Of a DNA stretch of 64,000 nucleotides, positions 5,090-52,100 are shown one piece after another (the first letter of the stretch is position 1; every line of letters starts with the position of its first letter). The stretch is from NCBI GenBank assembly GCA_916610825.1, contig OU744451.1:14743905-14807904 (forward strand). Direction: 5' to 3'. The translations under genes were made by a program, and so were the position numbers. The DNA comes from Haliclystus octoradiatus. Its lineage: Eukaryota > Cnidaria > Staurozoa > Stauromedusae > Haliclystidae. Under the pieces are notes generated by a model. It did no database searches, was not told the origin of the DNA, and saw only the letters and a program-made list of their open reading frames with translations.

Positions 5090-5340
5090 TTCCAGCAGGT
5101 TTTCAGTTTTTTACCAGTATTATTTCATTAGATAGTCAGCATGTGTCCCTTATTTCAGCACATTTTCAGCAGGTTTTAAGTACACATTCAACATAATTCC
5201 ATTTTAAAATCATGAGATTTCCATCAATTTCAGCCTGCTGAAAAGGTGCTGAAGTATGCTGTTTTCAGCATGTTGCATATGCTGAAAAAGTAATGAGATT
5301 TCAGCAGATTTTCAGCATGTTTCCAGTAATTTCGACCTCA
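5090..5340 (+). repeat. TTCAGCA-rich degenerate repeats
   Basis: Irregular runs of TTCAGCA, CAGCAGGTTTTCAG and the inverse CTGCTGAAA. No coding sequence is seen. The block abuts the first pol reading frame, where the gag gene and 5' LTR of the Gypsy element would be expected. It is therefore either a diverged leader or unrelated repeat DNA fused to a truncated element. Confidence 0.4.
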
Positions 5341-5342
5341 TA

Positions 5343-8300
5343 GTGAGACCAGATGGCGTGAATACAATAGTCATGGCATTAAGCTCTGACCGTAAAGCCC
5401 CACGGATTGAATGTAAAATTACTATTCCTAATCAGACGGTTACTAAGACAATGATCTGTCTTCCTGATTCTGGGGCTGAAGCTACATGTCTGGGATGGCG
5501 GAATGCACAGTGTATGGGTATTAAACATTCTGACCTAAAGAAATACAAGGGACCAACGATTAAAGCTGCCAACGGTCAACCTCTTCAGTGCATAGGCACT
5601 TTTGAGTCTACAATTTCCCACGGACGTAAAAACACAGCTGAAACCATTAAAGTATTTTATGAACTCGAGGGTATGCTACTTAGCTGGTATGCTTCCTTAG
5701 ATCTAGGAATATTACCTCCAAATTATCCTCAACAAAGCATGACCACAACTGTTAATACCGTACAGAAAAACATATCAGTACCACCTACTGCTACAGAAAT
5801 AAACACGATACGACAACAACTATTGAATGACTTTCACGATGTTTTTGACTCAACTGAACATTTAAAGCCTATGAATACACAACCAATGAAAATACAATTA
5901 AAACCTGATGCTAAGCCTGTTCATGTCCGAGCAGCCAGATCATTACCATTCGCATGGCATGTCAAAGCTCAAGAAACGTTGAATTCTATGGTACAAAAAG
6001 GGATTATTTGCCCTGTATCTGAACCCACGGATTGGTGCTCCCCTATGCATATCACAACCAAATCAAATGGTGACCTGCGCATAGTAGGGGATATGAGGGC
6101 TCTCAATCAAAATATCAAACGTCCTGTGTACCCTTTAGTTACACCCAAAGAAGCCAAAGCTACAATAGATCAAGAAGCTACTTACTTTTTCACACTTGAT
6201 GCAACTAGTGGGTACTGGCAAGTCCCCTTGGAAGAGTCTAGTCAATCCCTAACAACATTTATAACCCCTTGGGGTAGATATAAATATTTACGTGCCACCA
6301 TGGGTTTGATCAGCAGTGGGGACGAATACAACCTTCGTGGTGATCAGGCACTGAAAGGAATACCGTCACGAACATGCAAAGTGGTTGACGACCCACTGTT
6401 GTATGATACATCATTCGGGGATCATGTTGAGCACATGCAATCTTTGTTACAGCAATGCCGTCATCATGGCATCACTTTGAATCCTACCAAATTTATATTC
6501 GCACAGTCGTCGGTCAAGTATGTCGGCTATAACATAAGTCATTCAGGCATTACACCAAGTACAGAAAGAATCAAAGCTATAACTGATTTCCCAACCCCAT
6601 TAAACTTGACAGAACTGAGATCGTTTTTTGGGTTGGTTGAACAATTGTCGAACTTCTGTCCATCCATAGCTGCTCTCAAAGAGCCAATGAGACCTTTACT
6701 TAAGTCAACTAATGTATTCCAGTGGCTGCCAATTCATGATACGGCTTTCCAAGCAGTCAAGAGGCTATTCAAAAGCCTCCAATTTTATCGTTTTATCAAC
6801 AAGATCTTCCATTAGTTCTGCAGACTGATGCTTCTAGACTTCATGGTTTGGGATACGCCCTGCTACAACGACAGAATGGTCAATGGCGACTTTTAGAATG
6901 CGGATCTCGTTTCCTAAGTGATGCTGAGAAGCGATACGCCACCATTGAGCTAGAATGTCTGGCAGTCTCATGTGCAGCTCTTAAATGTCATCTGTATCTA
7001 CAGGGTCAATCGAATTTCACCGTCGTGACGGATCATAAGCCACTTCTTCCAATTTTGAACAGTTATTCAATCACGGATACAGACAATCCTCGACTACAAC
7101 GACTTCTATACAAATTATCTCCATTCAGTTTCAAGACTGAGTGGACCAAAGGAAAAGACCACCATCTAGCAGACGCCCTTTCTAGGTCACCAATTTCTCA
7201 GCCTCAACAAGGAGATGAATTAGCAGAAGAATGTAATCTTCAAATCGAAGCAATGATGACCTCATTTGTTAATTCCACGTCACACCAAACATCACGTTGG
7301 CCTGATCGCACTCTAGAGTCTCTTCAAGATAAAGCCAAGAATGATACTGACTATTCATCACTTATAAATCTGATCACAAATGGTTTTCCTAAACATACCA
7401 ATGCTCTTCCAACGAGCCTACAACCATTTCATAAAATTCATCATGAACTCTCAATTGAAAATGGACTTGTATTGCATGGTTCACAAATTGTTATCCCTTC
7501 CTGCTGTCGCTCTGACATACTGTCAAGACTGCATTCATCCCATCAAGGGATTACTCGCACTAAACAACGGGCACGTCAAACTGTTTGGTGGCCAAAAATA
7601 TCAAATGATATTGATCGAATTATTCAAACGTGTACAGCTTGTCAGCAATTACTCCCAAGTCAGGTAAAGGAGCCATACAAAGAAGATGAGCTACCAACTC
7701 GCATTTTTGAGTCAACTTCAGCCGACTTCTTCGAAGTTCAAGGTCAGCATTTTCTGGTGTATGTAGATCGTTATTCTGGGTGGCCAAGTGCAGTAAAGTT
7801 CGGCAAAGATACTACGACTTCACCATTGTGTCTGGCATTAATGCAGCTATTTGCTAACACTGGCATTCCTGTTCGCCTTCGATCAGATGGGGGGCCTCAA
7901 TTCACAAGCTATGAATTCGCTAATTTCTGCAAGAAATGGGGCATTCAACACTCACCATCTTCTCCGCATTACCCACAATTAAATGGTCATGCCGAGATAA
8001 ATGTGAAGAAAACGAAATATCTCATTATGAAAACTTGCAAAAACGGTATTATTCATACTGAAGACTTCTACAAAGGATTATTAGAATTGCGAAACACTCC
8101 TTCTTTTCATGGTAAATCGCCTGCGCAACTCGTATTTGGCAACTCCATTCGCAGTCGGGTTCCAGCCCATTATTAGTCATTTCTACCGCAATGGGAGTCA
8201 TCAGTATCATCCTCCGCTATAATGGCAAAGCAGCACCTCGAAAAAACTAAAATCGACTATGACAAAACGTCAAAGATGTTACACGTTCTCCATGTAGGAG

Positions 8301-8572
8301 ATAAAATATTACTGCAAGATACTTCTACAAAAAGATGGCACCATCGTGGAAAAGTCACAAAAATATTGCACGACCGTGATTATGAAATTCTATTAGACTC
8401 CGGATCATCATTACGCCGCAATAGACGGTTTTTACGACCGATACAGATGACAGAACCCGAAGAACGATCTTCTACAACTGAGGTACTTCCTTCTATGTCC
8501 CCTCAAAGCAGACCACGACGCGTTCACAATCCTCCACGTCGATACGCAAACTCAAGCCCGTTAATGGAATGA
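5343..8572 (+). pseudogene. Gypsy-type (Ty3) retrotransposon pol, element 1
   Basis: Domains run in Ty3/Gypsy order: protease (DSGA at residues 42-45 of the first frame), reverse transcriptase (FTLDATSGYWQVPL and the catalytic VVDD block near residue 348), RNase H (TDAS, ATIELE, VVTDHKPL, ADALSRSP), integrase with HHCC zinc finger and DDE core (SADFF, RSDGGPQF, NGHAE), and a C-terminal region ending near 8572. It is broken: a frameshift near 6770-6780 separates RT from RNase H, and an in-frame TAG at 8174-8176 separates integrase from the C-terminal part. No gag and no 5' LTR were found. The family is an env-less Gypsy clade that uses VVDD in place of YxDD. Confidence 0.9.
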
Positions 8573-8950
8573 ACATTATCATTATCATACTATTAAACTA
8601 TGCTACGCAAATATATTACCTAAAATACTTACTCATTAATCTTACTACTATAAAAGACAACTAATCCAAGCAAATAGTTTTATACCATCAAGATATATCT
8701 ACTGTTATTAGATTTCGTATATTGTACTCTACAAAAGAAAAGAGTTTACCCATAATTCATAATAGATATAATGACTCTACAAAAGAAAAGAGTTCATAGA
8801 TAATAGATATAATAGTATTACTTACTTACTATGATTAGTACTGGCATTAGCAGTCATCTTCCAGTTTAACATTTACTGTTACCATTATTCATTTTATTAT
8901 AACCATATTTAGTAACATTGCATTTCATTTAACTTTACTATTAACGTCTT

Positions 8951-9004
8951 AAAAAGGGAGATGATGTATCTGACTACGCATGCGTCAGGCTTTTTCACAT
9001 AACT
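8951..9004 (+). mobile_element. Polypurine tract and start of 3' LTR, element 1
   Basis: A purine run, AAAAAGGGAGATGA (8951-8964), is followed by TG opening a sequence TGTATCTGACTACGCATGCG, the expected layout for plus-strand priming and the LTR start. Only about 40 bp of LTR remain before the sequence becomes RT of a second element, so the 3' LTR is cut off. The intervening 8573-8950 is AT-rich non-coding 3' region with two copies of the string CTACAAAAGAAAAGAGTT. Confidence 0.6.
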
Positions 9005-11035
9005 AGACTACAAATGGGGATGAAAAACAATGCCAGCATTCTTCAACAAGCCATCGAAAACGTTCTAAAAGGATTAAAAGGGGTTATCCCATATCAGGAC
9101 AATGTCCTTATATTTGCCAATACGGAGGACTCATTGAACAAGCGCATGGACGCAGTAATGGAACGTTTCAAGCAGCGCAGGTTGTCATCTGTTAACCATG
9201 ACAAGTGCATAAATAAAATGAAGGAAGTAACATTTCTAGGCTTTAAAGTATCCAGTGACGGTATTGAACCTGATAAGCAACTTGTTGAAAAGGTTTTGAA
9301 TATACCGCCTCCTAAAATAAAGAAATGAAGTTGCTTCCTTTGTAGGCTTAATAAATTTTTTTGGGCGACTCATCCCTAATTTTGCTAACAAAGTAACACC
9401 ACTAAATGGTATACGAAAACAAGACAAAAGGTTTGTGTGGGAAGAGACTGAGCAAAATGCACTTGAAAGCCTCAAGCGTGAAATTGCTTCTTCACCAGTA
9501 ATTCAGCCGTATTCTTTAACAAAACCAGTCACTGTAACGACAGATGCTTCCGCTACAGCGATTGCCGGTATTTTGACTCAAGACGGCCATCCCGTTATTT
9601 TTGTTTCAAAGGCATTGACCTCAGCTGAACAAAACTTTTCAGCTACAGAAAGAGAGGCATTTGCAGTAGTATGGTGCGTTGAACGTTTACGTCAATTCTT
9701 GCTTGGTCGACGATTTAAACTTATCACCGACCACTAAGTACTAGTCTGTTTGTTTGGTGCTAACAAACCAATACCTAAAACGGCCTCTGCCTGGATTTCC
9801 AGATAGGCAATAAAGCTTATGGCTTTTGATTTTGACTTTAAATATAGGCCTGGAAGTATGATCACTCATGCGGACGTACTTTCACGTCTGCGGCAGTTAA
9901 CAATTACTCGTGTGAAGATGTTGTTGACTTGCTAGTGTCGCTACGGCAACCATTTCAGCATTTTTTGCTCCAGTCCTTCCCGTTAACGAATTGAAATTTT
10001 GCTCACAAAACGATCCGATAGCGGTCAGCATAACGAAACGAATTGCTGACAATCGATGGTCAGCATTATCTGAATCTGAACGAGCTTTTTTACGTTTCAA
10101 AGATTGTTTGACAATTGAAAATGACGTCATTTATTTTAAAAGTGTTCCCTTCATTCCCGCAAAACTACGTCGAATAGTTTTACAGAAAGCTCATGAAACC
10201 CACCAGGGCATTAATGCCACATGCAGGTTTCTTCTAAAAGGAGCGTGGTGGCCTGGTATTTTTCGCAATGTAGAGAACTTTGTTTGTACTTGTCAAACAT
10301 GCTGTTCGATTAGACCTAGATTTGGTCAAAGTGTGGACACTTGACCAGAAGCAGAACCATGGGAAAGACTTCACATGGATTTTGCGCATGTTGTTGATGT
10401 AGGCTTGATATTTACTCTTGCCGATGCAGGTACGGGATGGATAGAAGCATTCAGATACCCAGATCGTGCCACAGCAACTGTAATTAAAATACTAGCTAGC
10501 GTATTTTCTCGTATTGGTATTCCTAAAACTTTCGTCTCAGATAACGCAAGGGAATTTATTAATGTTGAGATTGTGCAATGGCTTGCCAACTCCAGTTGCC
10601 GCAAATTGAATCTCCTGCCTATTTTCCGCGTTCTAACGGATTAGCTGAACGTGCGGTCCAGACAGTCAAGCGGGCAATGAAGGCATGGCACACAGGATTG
10701 CGTGTATCATTTGTAATGTTTCTAAATCGTATTTTGACAGTTCACCATGCGACTTTCCTTGCTAGAGTAAATCACCTGCAGAGTTATTGTTGGGACGCAA
10801 TTTACGTGTTACTACAAATAACAGAACTATTTTGGCTTCACGTAATCAGTTTGCTCGTAGTGGAATTATTGCTCCAGTTGCAGATCAATCATCTACAGGT
10901 ACCCGCTTAGTCAACACTCCTGATGGTAACACTGATATAACTACTGAAAGAACAGAAAGAAAACTACCACGTCGTCCAGAAAGCAACACTGACCCACCAA
11001 ATCATTATGGATATAATAACACATAGAGTAGATTC
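9005..11035 (+). pseudogene. Gypsy-type retrotransposon pol, element 2 (degenerate)
   Basis: It begins inside RT with a degraded active site (YQDN where YxDD is expected) and continues with RT thumb, RNase H (TTDASATAIAGIL, FSATEREAFAVVW, TDH), the integrase zinc finger (HETHQGINATCRF, CTCQTC) and the DDE core (LHMDFA, VSDNAREF, GLAERAVQT). Frames change repeatedly (breaks near 9328, 9737, 10342, 10640 and 10790), with in-frame stops. It belongs to a different Gypsy lineage from element 1, nearer to the group annotated in databases as K02A2.6-like. It is dead. Confidence 0.85.
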
Positions 11036-11227: not shown

Positions 11228-11640
11228 ATAACTCGAATAACTATAACTTATTAACTAATAGTCTATGAAAAGCCCTGTCGGTACCTGTAACACTGTCATG
11301 TCTGATGGTCCTATATAGAAGAAAATTAATTGTTTTCTAACTTTTCAATGACGCTCTCATGCAGCGACATGACGATACTAGTCATAAAAACGTTTTCCTA
11401 GTGATTGTCAGGCGGTTTCTTCTATAAAGCTGTTGAATTTGAGAAAAATAACGCAAACGCTGCTATTTGTAAAAAAGGTCAACAATATTGTTCAAGTAGG
11501 ACGTACTGAACTATATGGAATAAGCTGATAAAATATACTGTAGATTTAAAGGTGCTTATTATTCATCACGTCATTGCTAGCAATTTTTAATTGAAGTAAC
11601 ATTTATATTCCGTCTCTATTGGAATTGAGCAAAAAGAAGC
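11228..11640. other. No gene seen
   Basis: AT-rich spacer between the Gypsy element and the PAN-like exon; it may hold the promoter of the latter. No clear TATA box or repeat was recognised. Confidence 0.4.
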
Positions 11641-11643
11641 AAT

Positions 11644-12063
11644 ATGAATGATATCATTTTATTTGGTATGGTGCTTTTTCAGTGTATGGCTTGTGAGTTG
11701 GCTTGTGTATATTCTGGAAAAAGCAATTCAGATTCTTATGCTCTAAAAGCAATCAAAGAAAACGCCAACATTCTTCTTGAGCATTTGAAAACGATCTCAA
11801 CAGAAACAGAAGTTCGATGCGTGGCCTTATGTGCTATAAATAGCAATTGTGATGTAATTGGATATGGAATACAATCTCTAAGAAAAAATAACTGTTTGTT
11901 GGTCAAGAAAAATGCTGCATTTGATCATGGAAAGACTTATATGGCAATGTCATCGTATGAAGGATTCACATTTCAGGAGATATCAGATATCAGCAAAGAG
12001 AATAAGGTTAGATACATGCCTATGATTCTACTAAGATATTATAATAGAACCAAGATAGTCTAA
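11644..12063 (+). CDS. Secreted PAN/apple-like protein, first exon or short gene
   Basis: The open frame has an N-terminal hydrophobic signal peptide (residues 1 to about 24, FGMVLFQCMACELACVYS). A PAN/apple-like core follows, with Cys59, Cys63, Cys69 and Cys84 (pattern CVALCAINSNC...NNCLLVK), the disulfide framework that folds around the central helix in this family. The last residues, after the AAG at 12004-12006, may be intron read-through, because AAG/GTTAGA there could be a donor. PAN domains bind protein or carbohydrate outside the cell. A fibrinogen-like exon lies 9.4 kb downstream on the same strand, but the phases do not match directly, so a single gene would need at least one further exon. 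Confidence 0.6.
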   Translation: MNDIILFGMVLFQCMACELACVYSGKSNSDSYALKAIKENANILLEHLKTISTETEVRCVALCAINSNCDVIGYGIQSLRKNNCLLVKKNAAFDHGKTYMAMSSYEGFTFQEISDISKENKVRYMPMILLRYYNRTKIV

Positions 12064-13574: not shown

Positions 13575-14430
13575 CATAAAGTAGTAGTAGTAGTAGTATA
13601 GACAGTCACATTATAGGAATGTGCCGTCCCTCTTACGCCTTACATATTTGCTACATAAAGAACGCCACAAAACACGGTCAGACATAGCTGACAAAGAAAC
13701 TTTTAAATAACACAATTCACGATACAAAACATTATGAAAAGATACTACTCTACCATAGCCCCGTCGAAGCATCTCCTTCGGTTGCCAATGAAGGATGTCA
13801 TGCAGCGGTTGAGGGGCATACGTCTTTGATCTTTCGATGTGACCTAAAAAAGACATCTGACGTTGGTGAGCAATAGCAGAGGCAGAAGGGGAAAGTTTCC
13901 TAAGTTTAGCAGTAGACAGTAAGTTGGGCCAATGTACTCCTAAAGCATGCCGAAGCATGGCGTCATAAGCTGAGTCAAGTCGGGTCAATAGTGAGGTTGA
14001 TAGAACCCACGTTTCAGAAGCATATAATAGAACAGGTTCTATCGTGTGTCTGAACAGTCTTAACTTAACGTCAGTGTTGACATCGGACGCCCAGAATTTA
14101 TTCAGACCTCTAATGGCTGCCCAAGCCTGGCCTCTACGTTGTGTTAAATCATCTGAAGAAGATGGAAGTACAGAACCTAGGTACTTGAACGAATCTACAC
14201 GTTCTATGTCACCATTAGATGTAACAAGATGTGCCTGTTTTATGCCTAAAGCAATAAATTTCGTCTTAGTCGTGTTAATTGTCAAGCCTACCGTTTTACC
14301 AACCCGTTCAACTTCATCAAGAAGCTGTTGTGCTTCAGATATGCTATTTGTTAAGATAGCAATATCGTCAACGAATGAGAGGTCCGATACGCTGCGCTCT
14401 GGATGACGTGAAGACCTACGATAAAGAATT
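13575..14430 (-). pseudogene. LINE reverse transcriptase, 3' fragment
   Basis: The minus strand encodes the RT palm (FVDDIAILTNS, with the catalytic FVDD, just upstream of 14285) and runs without interruption through the thumb and C-terminal region (SFKYLGSVLP, LFRHTIEPVLLYASETW, FLGHIERS) to a stop at 13611. The sequence is of the RTE/I-group type. The 5' half (endonuclease and fingers) is missing, a usual 5' truncation. The 3' end falls at a short (TAC)n tract on the minus strand (GTAGTAGTAGTAGTAGTA on plus, 13580-13598), the type of 3' tail many RTE-like LINEs leave. Confidence 0.85.
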
Positions 14431-15450
14431 AACGAAAGAATTATAAGCGTTATTAAAATTAAAATTTCATTATGTTGATTTAGTCTGTTCAGCGATAAGA
14501 TTTTAAAGTATATCTAATTCAGCAAAATCAAATTGAATTGAAAATAAAGCGTATGATTTGTGAGCAATATGATTATGAAATTTGTAACGTTCAAAATATT
14601 TTCAACTTCATTCAATGATGTTATCCTGTCAATCAAATTTCGCGTAGCTTTTGAATATAATTCCTGTAGATTATGTCAACAATAATTAAATATGGGGTGG
14701 GCGAGAAACGTCAACTCACCGACTCGCCAACTATCTCAACTTTTATTACGCTTTTCATTCAAATTAGGCAAATTTCACGAATATCCTGCATTACATAGCA
14801 TCTAAATAAGATGAATGAAGTATTTTCTGTGTACTGTCGCAGTCATAGGCATCAAAATAACTCGAAAAGGTTAAAAAGTTAATAAATTCTTAAATTCAAG
14901 GAATTACATTGCAAATGTTGTTAGAGTGTAACAAAAGTTTAATTATGTTTGCTATTTAGTAATCTGAAAGTTTTATCACTCAAGGTCTAGTACTGGGGCA
15001 CACTAATTGCTAGTAATTAATAATACCATGAGATATTTTGCAGGTTAAGGCTCATTCCTCCCACATTGCGTTTTATTTATTATTTTCATTGGCTTTCGCA
15101 TAAACATTCACTAACAAACGAATAAAATTAATTAATGAAACTTACGATAAAATTAGCTATTAATAAATTGAGACCGTCAATATGGCCTATAAGACAAAAG
15201 TCCTAATAGATTAAATTTGTCAATTTGTTTTTACTCTAAAAATGTTTACAGACTTTTTCAATATTTATCATGTTTTCACTTTAGAATATTTTACATGTCT
15301 ACTTTTTTTGGTTATTCATTCAGGAATGGAACTCAAGAAAAGGTAGGAGTTAATGAGTGAAGTGAAGCAGTTCTTTATCTAATTTTAAAGTAAATGTGCT
15401 TGATCGGCACATATGATTTATTTCATTTATTGATAAGTTGGATAAATAGC
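14431..15450. other. No gene seen
   Basis: AT-rich sequence without a recognisable exon or repeat. Confidence 0.4.
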
Positions 15451-20634: not shown

Positions 20635-21370
20635 AGAGGGGTTTCGACCAATAAATTTGCCGACTTCACCGGAGTACGATCCGGATATATAACAGTAAAT
20701 TGGAAGCAATTTATCTAGTCGCCAAAATTGCTTTTTACTGGCTTTAAAAATGCATTTTCACAAACTCACGGAATATTATTAGTTCGCAATTGGTCTCTTT
20801 GATTTCAAAGCCAGGCCATCGTGATCTTTCAGTGTCTTGTCTAATGTCTATGCCAATTAAATGCTACGAAATAACCATTTAATTCGTGTAACGCCATTCA
20901 GAAAATGACCATTTACACATGGAATGATCAATAGTTACTTTTCATGATGAAAACAATTTGAGGAAGTTATTGTGAGTAAAACGAGAATAACTTTTTGTCA
21001 TCATTTTAATCTAATATCACTAAAAATACCAATAGTATTTTCACGCATATTTTCTTCGAATATTCAAGTTCTTCAGCGCTCGGCATGCAGGTCAATAAAA
21101 TCTTCAAGTGCTACATTGTATTTTGCTATAGAATTTACAAGAATTGCAAACTTACGTACAAATTAGAAAAAGTGCAATTATAGATATTTCCGATAGAATT
21201 TGTCAATGTATGTTGCACATCGTCGAGCCTGGTGTTTTCATATGATCAAAATGCTATATATAGATAGGAAACATTCCGATCTAAATATGGAACCGATAGT
21301 ACCTGTAGTGTATACTGTCAGTATTGTTATGAATTATGTAAAACCTTGAACTTTATAATTTGCTTTATTG
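20635..21370. other. No gene seen
   Basis: Intergenic or intronic AT-rich sequence leading up to the acceptor of the fibrinogen-like exon. Confidence 0.4.
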
Positions 21371-21377
21371 ATTGCAG

Positions 21378-21955
21378 TACACGAAAGTTGTAAAGATGCG
21401 TTCAATTATGTCAATTCAGATATTTTGTCGATCACAACGAAAATAAAATATAAAGATGGCTTCATTCAAGTCACATGCGAGAAAAAGCTAGATAACAAAT
21501 TTAGGTTTGTTTTAGGTCACAACCAAACAGATTTTGGTTACGAAAGGATTGATTATATTTCCGGAAGGTTCTCATATTTAAATTACAACAATACCGATGA
21601 AGAAATCAATTACATCAAAAGCATTTCTAGTCAATGCTATCAGAACGTTTCCCTTAAATGCAAGGGTGTGGCAGCTTTTGGGTTTTATTGGCAAGACATC
21701 AATGGTAGTCAGCATCAATACCTACCTGAATACATTGGCAATGGAATTGATTACTGCAATTGTTCTGGAACTGAAGGATGCTGCTGCAGCTACGAGGACT
21801 GTGCATGCTTCACAAATTCACGTTTGGAAGTGAAAAATGAAGGGTATCTCACGAAAAAAGAACATTTGCCGATTAATATGCTATACATTCAGGACGTTGA
21901 CCAAACAACTGAATGGGTGTATTTTAAAGCAAGTGCTCTCTTTTGTGATATTTAA
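21378..21955 (+). CDS. Fibrinogen-like terminal exon (neurexin IV/CNTNAP-type)
   Basis: The acceptor TTGATTGCAG precedes 21378. The exon enters in phase with two bases of a split codon and runs 192 codons to TAA at 21953. It starts SCKDAF and continues with QVTCEKKLDNKF, FGFYWQDINGSQHQYLPEYI, a cysteine-dense block (CNCSGTEGCCCSYEDCAC) and GYLTKKEHLPI, ending CD. The order Cys-rich loop, then GYLT.KEHLPI, then a terminal Cys resembles the fibrinogen-like domain of contactin-associated/neurexin IV proteins. That suggests an extracellular adhesion or recognition protein. No membrane segment follows, so this form would be secreted. The upstream exons are unknown; the PAN-like exon at 11644 is a candidate partner. 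Confidence 0.65.
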
Positions 21956-23548: not shown

Positions 23549-26500
23549 CTATTTTGGATTTTTACAGTCAGTACATCTAATCTTTGTGATGTCTCCTTTG
23601 TTGTTAATGTCAAGTGTTGCTGGACCTGTTTTGCTCTTATCTCTAAATGTCAACGTACGGCCATCTGCAGTCTTTCCATAACTCACTCCACCGTTATGTT
23701 TTTTTCCTGTTGCCTTTTCAAACAGAGCTTTCATAGCTTTACTAGAGGTGGCACTTTCTTTTACTGTTTCTGTTCCCTTTTTCTTTGCAAATGATCTTAC
23801 CACCTTGGCACCCGAATTGATTTTATCAATCTTTGAAAGTGCTTTTGCTCCCAATTTTGTAGCTGTTACTCCCTGTCCTAGACCAGGTACGATTGCTGCT
23901 GCTGACAGGCCTGCCTCTTTCCAATTACCTCTGATTGCGTGAAGACCAGCATTAACTGCATCAGGTACTGCGCCAAGACCAGGGACCATACCTCCTACAT
24001 CCAGTGCAGTATGAACTTTGTCCCAAGTGGATGATGGCTTCTTTGGTGTTTTCGATGATGACGATGATGATGACGATCGACTGCCACCCCACCAACCTAA
24101 CGTAAGGAAGACAGTTATAATATTGAGAGTTGGAATGAATATTAATTACCTACAATCTGATAAACCTAGCTCATGAAACTAAATTTTCACAAAAAGCATA
24201 ATTGGTAATTATTTACTTATTTTTTCAATTAAGAGTGTCTTTTATTGCGCCTTGAAATGAAATCCCCTACCACTGATGAGTTAACAATAGGATAAGATAT
24301 AAAGCGAAAAATATAACTTAAAATGACTAAATACAATGCCTAATTCCCAAGTGAATAGGAAATGAGAAAAAACAATGCCACCATCAAGTAAAACAAGATG
24401 TACCGATCATGTAATGTGCTATTTACGAGGAAATCACATGTAATTACATCCAAATTTATACGGCAATCTATTCAACTATGGCTTCTATAGAAGTCATTAG
24501 TTATATAAATCATGCTCTGCTATATATATATGCATCGATTTTAACCTGTCATGATGATTTATAGCCACCTGAGCTCTATAGAGGAGTGAGTGTTATACGG
24601 GTGCGTTCAGTATAGGGCGATACCGTCTAAATTACTTTTTAGCTAGATAAGTTCACATTAGGACATATATTGATTCATTACTTGTAGGGAGTCTATGTCA
24701 TGTCGATGCTCGATGTCATAAGACGATTTCATCAATGTTGCTCCCAGGAAAGAAGAAAGTCATGCATGAATTATATGATGTCTTGTTGAATATGGTAACT
24801 ATAAGTATACTGATAACTATGGATGCATGGTTGGACTTGAAAATCCTCAAATATCAAATTTAGAGAAGAATTTTGCTCATTTATGACTTCACTATAATTG
24901 TATCCGAGGCACTGTAAATTACAGCAACTCCGTTTATCAACATAAAATAGCTTGTCAAATTGAACAATCAGTATCGCTATTATTAATCATCTGACATAAC
25001 ATATACCTAGCTTGTTATAATTCATAACCTATTCAATAAACTAAACATAATACCAAAATGCTGTTTGATGCTGCCATTTGCATTTAAAAATGCAGAATTT
25101 CCAATTCTTTCTGCGTTTTGAAAATATCATAGTGTATATAAAGTGTTGTAAAGTGTTACCTCCACTCTTGCGACCTGATGATGTCCTAGTAGATGATATT
25201 CTTGATGTGCCACTCGATCTACTACCTCCCCATCCACCTAAACATATAACAGCATTTACATAGTTTCTAGAGACAAATTGAATAATACTATATAACTGTT
25301 TAGTTACATCAACCTGCCATTCTAATGACGTGAAATTAATATATTAATAACAAAATGTTTAGTAAATTTCAGCTTACTTTCTTCCAAGTACAGTATATAG
25401 GGTAGACCTAGTGTAGAGTCAACTGTTAATTCGATCAATTCATTCATGTCCTGTGTATTGAATGGCTGCATGTGATTTAATGCAATCGATTGTTGCATGT
25501 TGTCTCTTTAGAACTATACAGTGATTTTTTATTTCGATTCATTGTCATCATCATCATCATCATCATTATAAAGCTTGAGCTTACGTTTTATGATTTAAAA
25601 TTTTCAAGGAATAGATTAAAGCAGAGCCAATTGCATGTAATAAAACAATTATAATAAATACAGAGATGTTTATTATCAGAAGAAATGTTCCAGCTGTCGA
25701 ATTCTCTAGCGATAGGATCTGACAGGAAGAGCCCAATCGTTTGGTCCTGTGATTTATGCTTAAGGGGAACGAGTCCAATTGAAGCCAATACTTATGAGTA
25801 CGCCAAAACGCGATAGTTGTTGTTGTCTTATACTCACTTCTACTTGATGTACTTGAGGATCCTCGTGATCTACTTCCTCCCCATCCTCCACCTAAAAGTA
25901 AACACAATTGCAACAAATTATGTTATATAAGATTATGGTTATCTGCCTCGAAGTGGTATTTTTATGATGAACTGATTGGTTTATCTTACATGCCAGCTAC
26001 TTCATAAAACTATCACGCCCAAATACTGGCTTCCTATACGTTACATTGCTAACTAGTAATAATTCCCCGAACATTATCATAATATCGAGAAAAACAAAAG
26101 CGTCGTTCCAAACGTGTGTTACCTTAGCCAGTACAATTAATAAAAGTATAACGATCAGCTATTTTCAATTAAGAAGTACTATAACACTTGTATTGTCATC
26201 AAGACATGATATCAACTCGTAACCGGGACAATTAACATGTATTGAAATGGATTGCATTTGAACTTACTGCTTCGACTACTGCTAGAACCTCTACTTGAGC
26301 TCCTGCTTCCACCACCCCAAAGAGGTGAACGTTTTACTCGCTCATGCTCGCTATGCTCTTCAGTTTGCATTGCCTCATCATCGTCCTCGTCTTCTTCCTC
26401 ACCAATATTATCATTGCCGTATTTTTCGTTGTATTCTGTGTAGGGAAGAAAACAATATGTCAAGGCCATGAGTTAACTTCCATCTGTGCATGTCTAGTAG

Positions 26501-27796
26501 CTATAGCTAACCATAATCTGAAGCTATTAGAAGCCTCATCGAATATAAGAAAGCTACGTCATCGAGCAGTGTACAAGGCATAGAGAGGCTGGATGTTGTT
26601 CTCATTCGTCGCAAATATTTTACTTGTATACTACATATACATTAGACAATTATAATAATGTATACGAAGAACATATAGACATCATCATCCAGTATATAAA
26701 GTGGCCAGTTACACCATATATATATATATACATCTATAGAGATATAATAAAAGGAGTCAAAGACTACACATTCATAATTGTTATATTGACTCATTTGACT
26801 CCTTTTATTATATTTAGCTCTGTCAAAGACATCGAGCACTATCTTTTGCTATTAGATGATATATACGTGATTGAAATTATCTTAAAGATATTTGCTAATG
26901 AATCGGCTAACTGCAGTGCTTATGAATAAACGTTCTAATTATGGATTAGGATTAGGAACTCAGAAGAGACATCCTTTTTGATTTCTAACTCAAATACTGC
27001 ATCTATATAATAATTATCAAAACGAATAGCATTCAGTGAAACCTCATGTAATGCAATTAATAGTGTCCGTGCATTATTGAATTCTTACCAAATCCCGAAC
27101 ATAAAATTTTGAATGTCGCAGAATTCAATGCCAATTCTGTATCATTAATGTCCTTCCCATGAACTATTTCAGGCTTTAATTTTTCCTCGAGAAGATGTTG
27201 ACATAAATGCTAATTACATAGATAAAAAGATAAATATAGTTTTTAAACTTGATATGTCATAACAAAAGCTAATAGAATATATATAGATTATGGATTTTAT
27301 TAACTTTGGGCATAGTAAATGTTTGAAATCGCTCGCGTGTAATGTATTCAGATTTTTTCAAGAAGAAACTTAAATGATGATCTATGATCAAGATAAGAAA
27401 CCTATCAAACATTATCTGATCTCAGCTAAATTCGAATGATACCTCCAAGAGGGCGTAGTAATATAAACACAGGTATATGGGCATGTATAGAGCTATCAAG
27501 TAAATTTTAGTCAATATCTGGTTTAAGCATACATACACAGTGTTTATATAGTATAACATAATTCCCGAATCCTTTTAACATCAATAACTTTCTTGTGCTA
27601 GGCTACGGTATATAAGCATTCGGAAAGATGGCACAGAATAATAATACAAATTAAACCATACTTGGAACCACTGAGCATTCTTTCTGGATGATAATAATTC
27701 TGTACAATAAACGTAATCTTATCTTACCTTCTGATAACTGCAATGTGGAAGCAGCAGTAACATACCAACACAAACGTAGAATGTCTGAAAAATCAT
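23549..27796 (-). CDS. Secreted preproprotein with polymorphic-toxin-like C-terminal region, 6 exons
   Basis: Exons on the minus strand: 27796-27728, 27209-27089, 26435-26268, 25891-25838, 25237-25160 and 24096-23549. All are GT-AG and the phases agree (1038 nt, 345 aa). Exon 1 is a complete signal peptide (Met plus hydrophobic LLLLP core). Exons 2-3 encode an acidic propeptide ending in the furin-type site RVKR (residues 96-99). Next come Ser/Arg-rich modules with WGGSRS-like motifs. One begins in exon 3, one fills exon 4 (54 nt), one fills exon 5 (78 nt) and one opens exon 6; exons 4 and 5 are symmetric, as after exon duplication. From residue 200, a VPGLG...AGLSAAAIVPGLG segment resembles the hydrophobic linker that precedes toxin domains in bacterial Rhs/polymorphic toxins. 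The last 45 residues (ADGRTLTFR, TLDIN, ITKIR) resemble the small C-terminal domains that follow it. Activity is unknown; I see no assignable catalytic triad. Gene transfer from bacteria is an inference. Confidence 0.65.
25546..25567 (+). repeat. (CAT)n microsatellite
   Basis: Seven CAT triplets in the intron between exons 4 and 5 of the secreted-protein gene. Confidence 0.8.
26715..26735. repeat. (TA)n microsatellite
   Basis: A short TA run within a 120-bp region that also contains the inverted pair AAAAGGAGTCAAAGAC / TTTGACTCCTTTTATTATAT around 26750-26815. Confidence 0.7.
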
Positions 27797-28249
27797 TTCG
27801 ATAATAACATATGCTCCTATCAACGTGGATTAATTGACTCTCCCTGTCCACCGTGTAGTAATTCGTCCCCGACTGACTTATAAAAACAGAAATGTTCTTT
27901 ATTTTTATATGTTCATATCGAAACTGAAACGTCAAGTGAATTGTACTGTTTTTTTCCATATATTACCGTCAATCAAATGTTCATATTCTACTTCCTAGTA
28001 TATGAATACTATAATACTGTTTCTAGTTTCTATAGCTCTTTACCAAGGAATTTTCTTCCCATTCATAGAAAGTAAGGATGTAAATATTAGATGACGGATG
28101 TAATGTTAAAATACCATATAATGATGATCACATTATGTACATTTTGGAATACATTTGTACATGTTTCGATACTTTTATAACTTTATAGTGAATCAATTTT
28201 ATCATAATATTATTTAGAAGCGACGAGGATCAAAAGGCTCCTATAACCA

Positions 28250-46100: not shown

Positions 46101-49100
46101 GATAGCTTTTAGTCTGCACACAGGCTAGATATAATATGGTTTAGGGATGTATTATATGATAATATTAAATGGTTATGGTACAGATCAGAATCCTCAATAT
46201 TTGAGTTGATTGTTGCATGGGGTAAACAATGTTAATATTTTATTATTATTATCTGTCAAGTAGTGTCAGTGATACTCCTGCAAAAAACAATTCAGGACTA
46301 CCTGACTGATAAGCATAACAAAGTAAGGAATATACATTATAGCTATCTTACTTCAATATATTAATATCTTGATATAAACATAGCCTACTTTGGAATGGTT
46401 GATAAAGGATTTACAGCATGGTTAATAAAGGATGTCGTGGGAATCCAAGTTTCTCTCAAATTAGAATCCCACTTCTTGAATCCATGTCTGTTACTTTAGA
46501 TATATCCAGCTAAATCATAGCTGATTTTTCAAAAAGTTGGAGCATCGATTGACAAAACCTGGGATTTTTAAACGATTTTCAGCTAAATGCTGACGTACAT
46601 TATGAATGTTGACTAGGCAGTAACTTGAGTTCTTGTGTGGTTGTTTGCTGCATTATCTTCAAATTATATGTAACTATTCATCACCTATTTGATTACAAGC
46701 TTGGTTTATGTTCTTAAATGTGTCGCCGCTATGAAAACATTCTGCCCAGGCAGTCATTAATAATTTAAATATAAATGATATTAAACGTTTCCAACCTGCT
46801 TACATTTGTAATATCAACATTTTACGGCTTTATTGCATTTAAGTGAAACTTGAAATTACGTTCCTACATTTAAATTGATATAAGGCATTATGCTAGAAGC
46901 GATTGGTCATATTAAAATGTTTAATATAGTTAACAAAGACATTTCCATAATGATCATGTACGATAATGAAACTAAAATAATAATGACTAATATTTTGATT
47001 TACTCAAGTTAATGCAAACATAGATGACTTATTTTGTAATAAAAGACAACGCAATTAAATTTATATTTTTATTCGCAACGTTTCGGCTTTGCACAGAAGC
47101 CATTATCAAGCTAAAAAATAATTTTACATGTTACCTATTTCACTTGTCGCCATTTACACACTCGAATTATAGAGCATCAAAGACCATCCTCATCAATAGG
47201 TGAACACATGAGGCAAGCACACCAAAATAGTGACATCAACGAGATTTTTAACAATTTTACAATTCTTAAGCACTGCCGAAATCAATTTGATCGCAAAGTT
47301 TACGAAATGTTATTTACCCGAGAACAATCTCCTTCATTAAATCGACAAATGGATTCAATTCCATCGTTATTATTCTCATGAACAAAGTGCTTCAAGTACA
47401 ATGGGTCCCAATAGACCAGTATATTACTATTCCCAATAGACCTTAGTATTAATTTCATATTTCTGTAGTTATATAAATAGGTAACATGTAAAATTATTTT
47501 TTAGCTTGATAATGGCTTAAGTGCAAAGCCGAAACGTTGCGAATAAAAATATAAATTTAATTGCGTTGTCTTTTATTACAAAATGCGTAAATTTGAAGCT
47601 TCTAATCAGATGACTTATTGTTTGGATAAATTTAATTTAACATAATGATACCATGTAGGAGAACGACAAAACACACCATGTTATGTTTATAAATATGCCT
47701 ATATAATGTTTGCGTTGAAATGAATCTAATAATAGCCTAGATGTAATCAAGTATAAATGTAAGAAAAATAACTGTAACAATGTGGAGATAGAAAGTAAGA
47801 GTTGAATGTATACCAGAAGATTTACATATTTACGAGAGTTTATGTTTAAAGACCATAAAATGACCAGCAGCCTTTGCAAATTTTTGTCTTTGAAATCTGG
47901 ACCCAGATTTCAATCACTTGTTTTTATGATACACGGCCTGCCTTTGTGTCTCCTTTGCACACAAACGCGATTTTGCAAAACATTTCGTAAAACGAACATT
48001 GAAGCATTCTGCTAAGTTGTTTATCAACGAACTGGTTTGGAAAGTTGTAAGAGCAATAGAGGTGGACGTCGTAAGGGCTCTCGACGCTTGAATAAATGTG
48101 TACCACGAAAATCAATTCACTTGCTACTAGTGTCATACGAATTGAGGAAGGAGGACAAAATTGAAAGCTACAACTGAACTCGACTGATTCAGAATTTCAT
48201 GTTGGTGCTTACTTGATACAAGAATATTAGGGATTGAAAGAACGGGAAGAGATTTGTTAGCATTCAAAATCGAAATTTATCACCGAAGCAAAATGAAATT
48301 ATAACACCAGGTGAATTCGATTATCAATACGGATACTTTGATCATTGACTCCAAATTATGTTTGTAAACACGTAGGCTTCGTCTAAAAATAGTTAGTTAC
48401 ATACCTATGCATGTTTTATATTTGCCTTGTTTACCTGCAGTAATTGTGCACGTAAATTGTAAAATTTAGAATCATATGAATTTATTTAGTGTTGATTTGA
48501 AAGTACATTTTATCCAAGTTGTTTTGATTTGCGTCAAACTTCTCAGACAGATAATCGGACTGTGACTCCCATTCTGCTATTTATTTTTGAGCCGTTTACA
48601 TTTGTTGGCTATCTATAGCCATAGACAAGTAAGAATTGAGATTTATCCAAAACTGAAATTGATAAACCAGACTATTTTCTCGAGCTTTCTGTCGTGTCTT
48701 TCCGTAGCAACAGCCACGAGGACAATCCTCTGACGTGAGCGCTGACGTCACTTTCCAGAGGATTAGCCTCGTTTCTTGTAATCAAGACAACAAAACAAAG
48801 CAAAGGCTGCTGGTCATTCGAAACACTTTAATGTTACAAAATCAATATCAAGTTATAGAAGAAAGAATTTGGAGTATTCATTGGTGTCACTCTATATATA
48901 TCATTCTATAAATAGTAGATCAAAGATCATGAGTTTACTCCGTTACTCTGAGTTTCGTGTAAAGACGCTCTTCAGACGGTTTATTGAATGAAAAATAATT
49001 ACGGTGTGCTCAAATATATACATGACTTAAGGAAGCGTTTCTATTAGCCGCTGTGGCTAGTATCGACCATTTTATTTGGTAATTGATATGTTTCTCTTTA

Positions 49101-52100
49101 AGCTTCCAAATATGTTTCGATAATTCTGTGCTATTTGTATATTTCTTTGCTTTGAAGGACATCTTATGTTGGGCTGTGCGCTGCTTGAAAGTGCCTTCAG
49201 TCAAACCGATATAGTTTTGGCCTATGCTGTCATGTGCCGTTGTGACGTTGGCTTTGTAAACGAGAGTTGAGGATAAGCATTTGTTGTCCAATGGGCAGTT
49301 GTTTTTGTTGCGGCAGTTGCATGTCTTTTTAGGTTTAGCGCTGCTATTGTCATTTAGGATTTTATTGTTATGGCTTCTAATTATGGTTTGGACATTAGCC
49401 ATGCAGTTGTAAGATACCTTAACATTATTTCTATTAAAACTCTTCTAAAAAAAATCTATTGCTTTCAGGTTTGTGTGGATAGTAATGCCTAGACCGATGC
49501 TTTTGAAGACTTTCACAATACCTTTTCTGGTTCTTTCCGCTTGTGGTCCCAACGTATTCTTTAATAATGCAATACCGTCATCCCTGTATAGGCCAACGTT
49601 TTTATACCATACTTTTTCGCAATTTTTTCTAATAAGAAGAGGCCGACTAATTCGCAGATTTCAGCCCCATCAAAGCTACCCATCGTAAAGTCAAATAAAT
49701 TGCCATTGTTTCTCTTCACCCAAGCAGAGCTATTGTCAAATAGCAATAACTTTCTCGCATGCATTATAATTTTTATATCCTCGGTAGTGATGTTAATAAA
49801 CTTTTTTGCGTATTTAATTGCATTGAGGAGATTGCGAGATTGGAGTCAGATTGGAGGAGATTGCAGCGAGGTGAAGAAAAACAATGGCAATTTATTTGAC
49901 GTTACGATGGGTAGCTTCGATGGGGCTGAAATCTGCGAACTAGTCGGCCTCTTCTTATTAGAAAAATTTGCAAAAAAGTATGGTATAGAAAGAGTTGGCC
50001 TATACAGGGATGACGGTATTGCATTATTAAAGAATACGCTGGGATCACAAGCGGAAAGAGCCAGAAAAGGTATTGTGAAAGTCTTCAAAAGCAACGGTCT
50101 AGGCATTACTATCCACACAAACCTGAAAGCAATAGATTTTTTAGATGTAACTCTCGACTTGAGTAATGGAGCTTACAAGCCCTACAGAAAACCAAACAAC
50201 GACCCGTCTTACATTAACGCAGAATCTAATCATACCCAGAGCATTATCAAGCAGATACCAATAGCTGTAAGTCAAAGGATCTTCGATCTATCAATTAATC
50301 AGGATGTCTTCGATAATTGTAAAGGCCCATATATATCTGCATTGAAATCCAGTGGGTACAACCCAGAGTTCACATACAAGGAACGCAGCCCTTTAACAAC
50401 GCCGGCCATTAACAGAAAAAGGAATATAATCTGGTTTAACATGCCATTCAGCCAAAATGTGGATACTAACATTGCAAAGAAATTTTTAGCGATGATTGAC
50501 AAACACTTTCCCAAAGCCCATAGACTGCACAAGATTTTTAATAGAAATAATGTTAAGGTATCTTACAGCTGCATGGGCAATGTCCAAACTATAATTAGAA
50601 GCCATAATAATAAAGCCCTAAGTGACAATAACAGCACTAAACCAAAAAAGACTTGCAACTGCCGCAACAAAGACAACTGCCCATTGGACAACAAATGCTT
50701 ATCCTCAACTCTCGTTTACAAGGCCAACGTCACAACGGCACATGACAGCATAGGCTAAAACTATATCGGTTCGACTGAAGGCACTTTCAAGCAGCGCACA
50801 GCCCAACATAAGATGTCCTTCAAAGCAAAGAAATATGCAAATAGCACAGAATTATCGAAACACATTTGGAAGCTTAAAGAGAAGCATATCAATTACCAAA
50901 TAAAATGGTCGATACTAGCCACAGCGGCTGCCTACAGTAACAAAACTAAAAAATGTAATCTATGTCTAACCGAGAAATTCCACATTATTTATTATAAACA
51001 TAACAATTTACTAAATAAAAGAACAGAACTCATTTCCAAGTGCCGACACAAAAACAAATATTATTTAAGAAACTACAAGAATAACAAGTAGATATTTAAC
51101 AATAGCATCGATAATGCAATAGAATGTAATAATATATGTAAACAATAGAAATGCTTCCTTAAGTCATGTATAGGCCTATATTTGAGCACACCATAATGAT
51201 TTTTCATTCAATCAACCGTCTGAAGAGCGTCTTTACGCGAAACTCAGAGTAATGGAGTAAACTCGTGATCTTTGATCTACTATTTATATTGCTCTGCTTT
51301 TGGCATTGAGCACTCAAATTGATGTTTTGCCCAAACAATTACTATATATCACTCTATATAAACCTCTCCTAAAGCTGTCCTTGACACTTCGCAGTTATTG
51401 GTGAGTCTTCTTATCAATGTAGTAAAAACTAAAAAGGTTCAATGTCTTGGTCCCTTTGGAAGGTTTGTACAGCTAGCCTTCAATTTGAATAGAAATCCAG
51501 CACACATTAAATTTACAAATAGAAAAAGTCAATGTTGATTTCATCTGAGTATGAGACTGTCATAGTATCAAGTACATAATCAAATTTGATACAAACCTAG
51601 CTGTAAGTTGTTAAAAGAAACGTAAGGAGAGTTTGTAATCATATAGGTGATAAATTATGATGAATAAACTGAAGAAGAATGCGACACGCATGCACGCAAG
51701 AACGCAAATACCACTCCCAACTCCTATAATCGAGTGGTTGAGAACTTGAACTTGACTGTAACTTTAATAGCTATTGTCTTACCTAATTGGCACCATAGTT
51801 CAATCCATGTATGTCGTGCTAGATATATCCGGAGCAATTGTGTTGCTGTATCGATCAATTTTGACGTACGTATAATCAAAAGGGGAGACTTTTCTATAGT
51901 TTGCATATTTTGATGTATTTTGAATGTTGACTTTGCGTGGTGTAAATATCTGATGTTCCAATCCTAATTACAAAGATTCCACTAAAGGACTAGCACTATG
52001 GCATGGAAACAGGAGCTCATTTCATTTACGTCTAAATCAATCTTACCCTGTATATAGAATATTTTAATAGCATAGCCTAACATTTATATAAGCGGTACAC

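Follow-up and report, generated by a model that had tools for sequence, protein, structure and literature searches.

Can the tip of a bacterial polymorphic toxin become the last exon of a secreted animal protein, and what might such a protein do? The question is raised by a locus on the minus strand of the genome of the stalked jellyfish Haliclystus octoradiatus, within a window of 64,000 nucleotides (the whole stretch of DNA that was analysed). Positions 23549-27796 carry a 1,038-nt coding sequence whose six exons join in frame into 345 codons plus a stop. The elements of the predicted gene are as follows.

27900-27909, minus strand: TATA-like TATAAAAATA, 113 nt upstream of the ATG
27871-27876, minus strand: initiator-like TCAGTC, 80 nt upstream of the ATG
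27871-27909, minus strand: possible core promoter made up of these two elements, read from the sequence as a consensus match only
27728-27796, minus strand: exon 1, residues 1-23, with the start codon and a putative signal peptide
27089-27209, minus strand: exon 2, first part of the propeptide
26268-26435, minus strand: exon 3, acidic propeptide, furin-type site and first W-G-G-G-S-R-S module
25838-25891, minus strand: exon 4, WGGSRS module
25160-25237, minus strand: exon 5, WGGSRS module
23549-24096, minus strand: exon 6, WWGGSRS module, pretoxin linker, toxin domain and stop codon

All five introns are of the GT-AG type; intron 1 is in phase 0 and introns 2-5 are in phase 1. GC content is 34-49% in the exons against 30-33% in the introns. 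A preliminary description of this DNA had proposed six spliced, in-phase exons, and the open frame, the splice sites and the matching phases all agree with it. We regard the predicted six-exon model and its 345-aa protein as confirmed, and the last exon is independently backed by relatives on other contigs. Searches of the jellyfish genome with the window sequence (E<=0.1) and with the relative P0002 (E<=10) matched this exon alone, and the gene looks to be single copy. One own-genome search with residues 64-178 found no relative of exons 1-5 outside the gene itself.

The C-terminal half of the protein resembles two modules of bacterial toxins, both within exon 6.

23822-24031, minus strand: pretoxin linker, residues 186-255 (linker profile, E=2.2e-26; plasmid-borne bacterial toxins)
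23552-23755, minus strand: toxin domain, residues 278-345 (toxin profile, E=6e-6), with R315, S318, T324, K335, R337 and an RC..C motif (C338, C341)

The linker profile was built from 14 sequences and the toxin profile from 15, both without the window protein and its relatives P0001 and P0002. P0007, missed by the search pattern, was left out of the former and L018, a short match, out of the latter. Searched against 1,432 open reading frames of the window (>=25 aa), the two profiles matched only exon 6, at the values given above. The E-value of the toxin profile is modest, and the pattern of ten residues used to collect the bacterial loci came from an alignment containing the window protein, so that those ten columns are favoured. 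Among 2,000 shuffled sequences the best linker score was 1.4e-3 against 1.8e-28 for the real sequence, and the best toxin score 0.048 against 1.4e-6; hhalign placed the toxin domain at 94% (E=1.2e-7). With residues 186-345 as the query, six proteins were found at E<=1e-3, and 14 at E<=10 once candidate size was taken from the whole protein. F289, G309, R315, S318 and T324 are identical in all 18 aligned sequences, and K335 and R337 in 17 of the 18; alignment A8 was made without L008, L011, L012 and L013, and alignment A4 without L008, L012 and L018.

Scans of the window protein and its pieces against Pfam and NCBIfam returned no relevant family for either module. No catalytic annotation can be borrowed, because neither module is represented in these collections. 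The profile comparison that the preliminary description had named as its check did find toxin-module similarity, which Pfam and NCBIfam alone would miss. The exon combines linker homology with a bacterial-family toxin domain at the extreme C-terminus, two features of a polymorphic-toxin tip. The profile tests support the earlier suggestion that the C-terminus, a hydrophobic linker followed by a small effector domain, derives from an Rhs-type toxin. We consider it very probable that the last exon is an acquired tip of this kind in a real gene. The linker is not preceded by a bacterial carrier of the Rhs, CdiA or LXG type, and Pfam recognised none; in its place the protein has a signal peptide, a propeptide and W/R/S-rich repeats.

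Bacteria share the linker as HTALDVGGMVPGLG...NAGL...LSAAAIVPGLGQ, upstream of differing toxins. It precedes a nuclease in Pseudomonas (P0009, nuclease domain by scan) and toxin type 15 in Burkholderia, and it occurs in an Rhs toxin of Vibrio tasmaniensis (L003) that adjoins an immunity gene. A plasmid search for the linker gave 20 records at E<=1. A profile search that combined the window protein, P0001 and P0002 gave 144 proteins at E<=0.1 among 8,000 scored candidates, and relatives were taken from the best 120 of these 144. When the relatives were scanned against Pfam and NCBIfam, the Duffyella protein showed PT-VENN, P0009 its nuclease domain, P0061 Ntox15 and the Rhs protein of Vibrio tasmaniensis a faint PT-TG signal (E=0.037); nothing else relevant appeared.

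The toxin domain was reached by way of P0002, whose C-terminus aligns over 38 aa (E=8e-3) with the last part of a haemagglutinin-type protein with PT-VENN from Duffyella gerundensis (L002). A genome-collection scan with alignment A3 yielded 29 pattern matches, 15 of them confirmed (L004-L018). The toxin match ends 0-3 codons ahead of the stop codon in 15 of 15 loci. In all 15, the longest open reading frame in the next 700 nt encodes 108-141 aa and starts within 50 nt, and most of these frames are alike by eye. This layout suggests that the bacterial loci are toxin and immunity arrangements with a small gene directly behind the toxin, whose carriers vary by eye among CdiA-, Rhs- and LXG-like forms. 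The toxin domains and the immunity-like frames appear to form a pair outside Pfam and NCBIfam. Pfam held no model better than E=0.14 for the 15 toxin domains, NCBIfam no relevant match for the four toxin domains tried, and neither collection a relevant match for the four immunity-like frames tried, members of a candidate family of about 108-141 aa behind the toxin domains of L004-L018. One bacterial immunity-like frame matched nothing in the jellyfish genome, in a search unable to show absence.

Viral contigs gave 12 pattern matches and no confirmed relative. Phage records returned nothing with the window sequence as the query and, with the Duffyella domain, one phage that is entered twice.

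Among the matches listed, the sequence that appears closest to a donor is P0023, which lies on a metagenomic contig of 1,874 nt. By eye it begins with the end of an Rhs core; next come the linker and a toxin domain in which TFRASSKSGPATVDV and KIKF occur. In bacterial genomes, open reading frames as long as 3,580 aa match parts of its 91 N-terminal residues; five of the six genomes matched, one of them via another part. P0023 is collinear with the jellyfish exon, with both modules in the same order and 37% identity over 146 columns. No relative of its toxin domain better than E=0.5 was found among plasmids. Of 398 genomes from the phylum of G001, three matched its tip (L032, L033 and L034). 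In one of these bacteria (L032, positions 88-1146) the toxin-domain variant reads GGQEAAEDLFQQL...GEPTIDIN, and a possible 126-aa immunity gene starts 4 nt behind it.

The tip also occurs in five animal-type relatives among the matches listed, on long ENA contigs: P0001 (2.46 Mb), P0019 (251 kb), P0020 (55 kb), P0021 (281 kb) and P0022 (887 kb). All five carry the linker (cut in P0001), the toxin domain and a new C-terminal RC..C motif, and the toxin core of P0001 is nearly identical to that of the jellyfish protein. Position 338, a tyrosine or phenylalanine elsewhere, is a cysteine in six animal-type forms. In P0019, P0021 and P0022 an L-G or S-G step directly precedes the conserved part, as expected if an AG|GT phase-1 acceptor had been read through, a reading drawn from the protein letters. 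The linker of P0002 (362 kb) groups with the animal-type relatives, but its toxin has the common bacterial form without RC..C. In a tree of 127 linkers (4 of 131 were dropped), the jellyfish protein, P0001, P0002 and P0019-P0022 make up a seven-member clade with a support of only 0.72, and the clade of P0019-P0022 has one of 0.915. The tree fits a single acquisition event, with moderate support.

The preliminary description had suggested a structure prediction for the last 100 residues. In a first structure model the linker is disordered (mean pLDDT 54.9), and fold searches gave unrelated sheets. The toxin domain modelled alone reached a pLDDT of 78, with a strand, a helix and four strands. 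Fold searches with both models gave no significant match and none to a nuclease, although absence from the match list excludes nothing; likewise, the BECR fold had no significant match with the toxin-domain model, and its absence from the list is not informative. Sequence searches of the PDB yielded no relative of the toxin domain, and with the Duffyella protein as the query only the stretch upstream of the toxin matched, to the tRNA nuclease CdiA. YxiD-type LXG RNases were considered and rejected, since the 18 aligned sequences have no conserved histidine column; YxiD belongs to Ntox50, a family described with three conserved histidines (PMC12700104).

The first half of the protein has the layout of an animal proprotein. 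Its predicted processing signals are listed here.

26341-26400, minus strand: acidic stretch EEEDEDDDEAMQTEEHSEHE, residues 76-95, from sequence and charge
26329-26340, minus strand: predicted RVKR furin-type cleavage site, residues 96-99

Residues 1-22 are hydrophobic and signal-peptide-like by hydropathy. Furin-type sites follow the consensus R-X-K/R-R. The propeptide (residues 23-99) has a net charge of -13 and ends in RVKR. The mature part (residues 100-345, 246 aa) has a net charge of +30; its first stretch, residues 100-185, holds 15 K/R and no D/E. The protein thus combines a putative signal peptide with an R-X-K/R-R site, as furin-processed proproteins do. The signal peptide by hydropathy, the acidic propeptide with RVKR and the WGGSRS modules are all present in the sequence as the preliminary description had read them, and we consider it probable that the product is a furin-activated secreted protein. 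Cationic antimicrobial peptide precursors carry an anionic propeptide, and here too an acidic propeptide precedes a cationic mature part; in contrast to such precursors, what follows the propeptide is 246 aa long and ends in a bacterial toxin tip.

The W-rich modules are arranged by exon. WGGGSRS lies inside exon 3, and WGGSRS starts exons 4, 5 and 6. Over their first 45 nt, exons 4-6 repeat one another at the DNA level (identity to exon 5 of 78% for exon 4 and 60% for exon 6), which fits exon duplication, and the exons towards the 3' end can be duplicated without a change of frame because they have phase 1 in common.

Compared with the bacterial Rhs-, CdiA- and LXG-like tips (P0023, Duffyella L002 and L004-L018; L003 for the linker), the jellyfish protein shares the linker and the toxin at the extreme C-terminus, in the same order as in P0023. 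It differs from them in lacking a carrier and in its predicted signal peptide, acidic propeptide, furin-type site, exon repeats, RC..C motif and introns. The novelty claimed in the preliminary description does not hold in kind, as animals with acquired polymorphic-toxin domains have already been published: at least 14 such domains are described from metazoans (PMC3482391), and Ntox44 from three stony corals, with a signal peptide and introns (PMC8162421). The coral case is likewise a bacterial polymorphic-toxin domain acquired by cnidarians and retained in several species. It concerns a different toxin family, and the description of the coral proteins, as far as covered, mentions no linker, acidic propeptide or furin site (PMC8162421). 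An Ntox44 model did not match the full jellyfish protein up to E=1; an Ntox44 search of the jellyfish genome gave no match, and its control also gave no match anywhere. Teneurins derive from Rhs-type proteins and were shown to be absent from cnidarians, as far as covered by the cited account (PMC13018210). Compared with them, the 345-aa protein lacks a YD shell, a beta-propeller (NHL) and a transmembrane helix (Pfam up to E=1), and a PDB sequence search lent no support to a likeness with the teneurin ABD.

As far as seen, three features are new: this toxin family in an animal, the co-occurrence of linker and toxin, and a furin-type layout with charge masking. No prior report of any of them was found in the literature, mostly in non-subscription texts. 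Previously known animal cases are single bacterial toxin domains, whereas here the linker and toxin stand behind what is predicted to be a full animal secretion and activation layout. This raises the question of how a toxin built for injection works once an animal secretes it. A published polyA RNA-seq run (ERR9434978; PMC9975415) exists for the species, so expression is testable at once.

Our preferred reading, to which we give a probability of about 45% as a whole, is that the acquired Rhs tip now belongs to a cationic effector that is secreted, activated by furin and directed at microbes or foreign cells. A cnidarian ancestor would have acquired the linker and small toxin, which became the last exon of a secretory gene whose product is made as a proprotein. 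The signal peptide would take it into the secretory pathway, where the acidic propeptide (-13) could mask the cationic mature part (+30) until furin cuts at RVKR. The W/R/S-rich repeats may replace the bacterial carrier and, judging from their composition, bring the protein to the anionic membranes of target cells. Within the target the toxin domain would most likely act on nucleic acid, if toxins of comparable size and context are a guide. In this proposal the producer is safe without an immunity protein because the toxin is masked and confined to the secretory route. An extracellular disulphide would fit the animal-type RC..C motif. Bacteria or other microbes are the likeliest targets, and we lean slightly towards a tip that is still toxic.

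Alternatively, the tip may have lost its toxicity through domestication, leaving a secreted protein with a structural, signalling or adhesive role, whose S/G/R/W-rich part would serve as a linker in matrix or mucus. Teneurins offer a precedent as a toxin-related protein used as a receptor (PMC13018210), and the cysteine that replaces Y/F338 in six animal-type forms lies beside the conserved K335 and R337. The residues identical across the bacterial members are retained, however, and we consider domestication somewhat unlikely. The core SKTGPATLD could be taken for decay of SSDGRPTLE, but this is ruled out by its bacterial counterpart SKSGPATVD in P0023. Use of a secreted toxin in predation or venom, instead of antimicrobial defence, would suit a cnidarian host and the secretory signal seen by hydropathy. 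We hold it to be improbable, since a cysteine-rich venom scaffold is absent and all sequence kin are antibacterial-type toxins; the role in allorecognition or venom raised earlier is not supported.

That the acquired DNA is no working gene, but a decaying insert open by chance or a wrong exon model, draws on exon 2, which has no known relative. Six open exons with matching phases, the near-identical toxin core of P0001 and the frame and motif retained by the copies in exons 4-6 speak against it, and make it very unlikely. Bacterial contamination or misassembly has the bacterial similarity in its favour and nothing else. It is set against the introns, the scaffold length of 26,960,693 bp (the assembly totals 261,861,806 bases over 33 scaffolds), the surrounding retroelements and a local GC content at the gene close to that of the remainder of the window, and its probability is negligible. 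In its most far-reaching form, which we judge unlikely, the secreted-effector proposal becomes a self-delivering interbacterial toxin made by the stalked jellyfish and its relatives. A furin-activated, charge-masked proprotein would use exon-duplicated W/R-rich repeats for a carrier, and its disulphide-stabilised, active Rhs tip would kill microbes or foreign cells. Since the producer's cytosol would never be exposed to the toxin, no immunity protein would be required. The teneurin ABD fold might also have originated from this bacterial toxin family.

The window and assembly hold several further elements. The 18,316-bp scaffold C33 carries COX1, readable under code 4. Retroelement pol pieces with broken frames lie on the plus strand at 5286-8572 (reverse transcriptase by Pfam, E=7.7e-18) and at 8945-10910 (by eye only), and the minus-strand open frame at 13611-14513 resembles, by eye, the terminal part of a reverse transcriptase from a non-LTR retroelement. 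Two facing frame copies at 49010-51091 with a repeated CNCRNK..CPLD...YIG resemble, by eye, the GIY-YIG end of a Penelope-type element; no Pfam match at E<=0.01 was obtained for the 388-aa frame there. A cysteine-rich 198-aa open frame adjoins the toxin-tip gene (21359-21952, plus strand), also with no Pfam match at E<=0.01, and an open frame at 11629-12060 (plus strand) starts with a hydrophobic stretch and matches the PAN domain at E=0.0038, which falls below the curated cut-off. Intron 2 contains a perfect 20-nt inverted repeat with 32 nt between its arms (26742-26813), possibly a small transposon.
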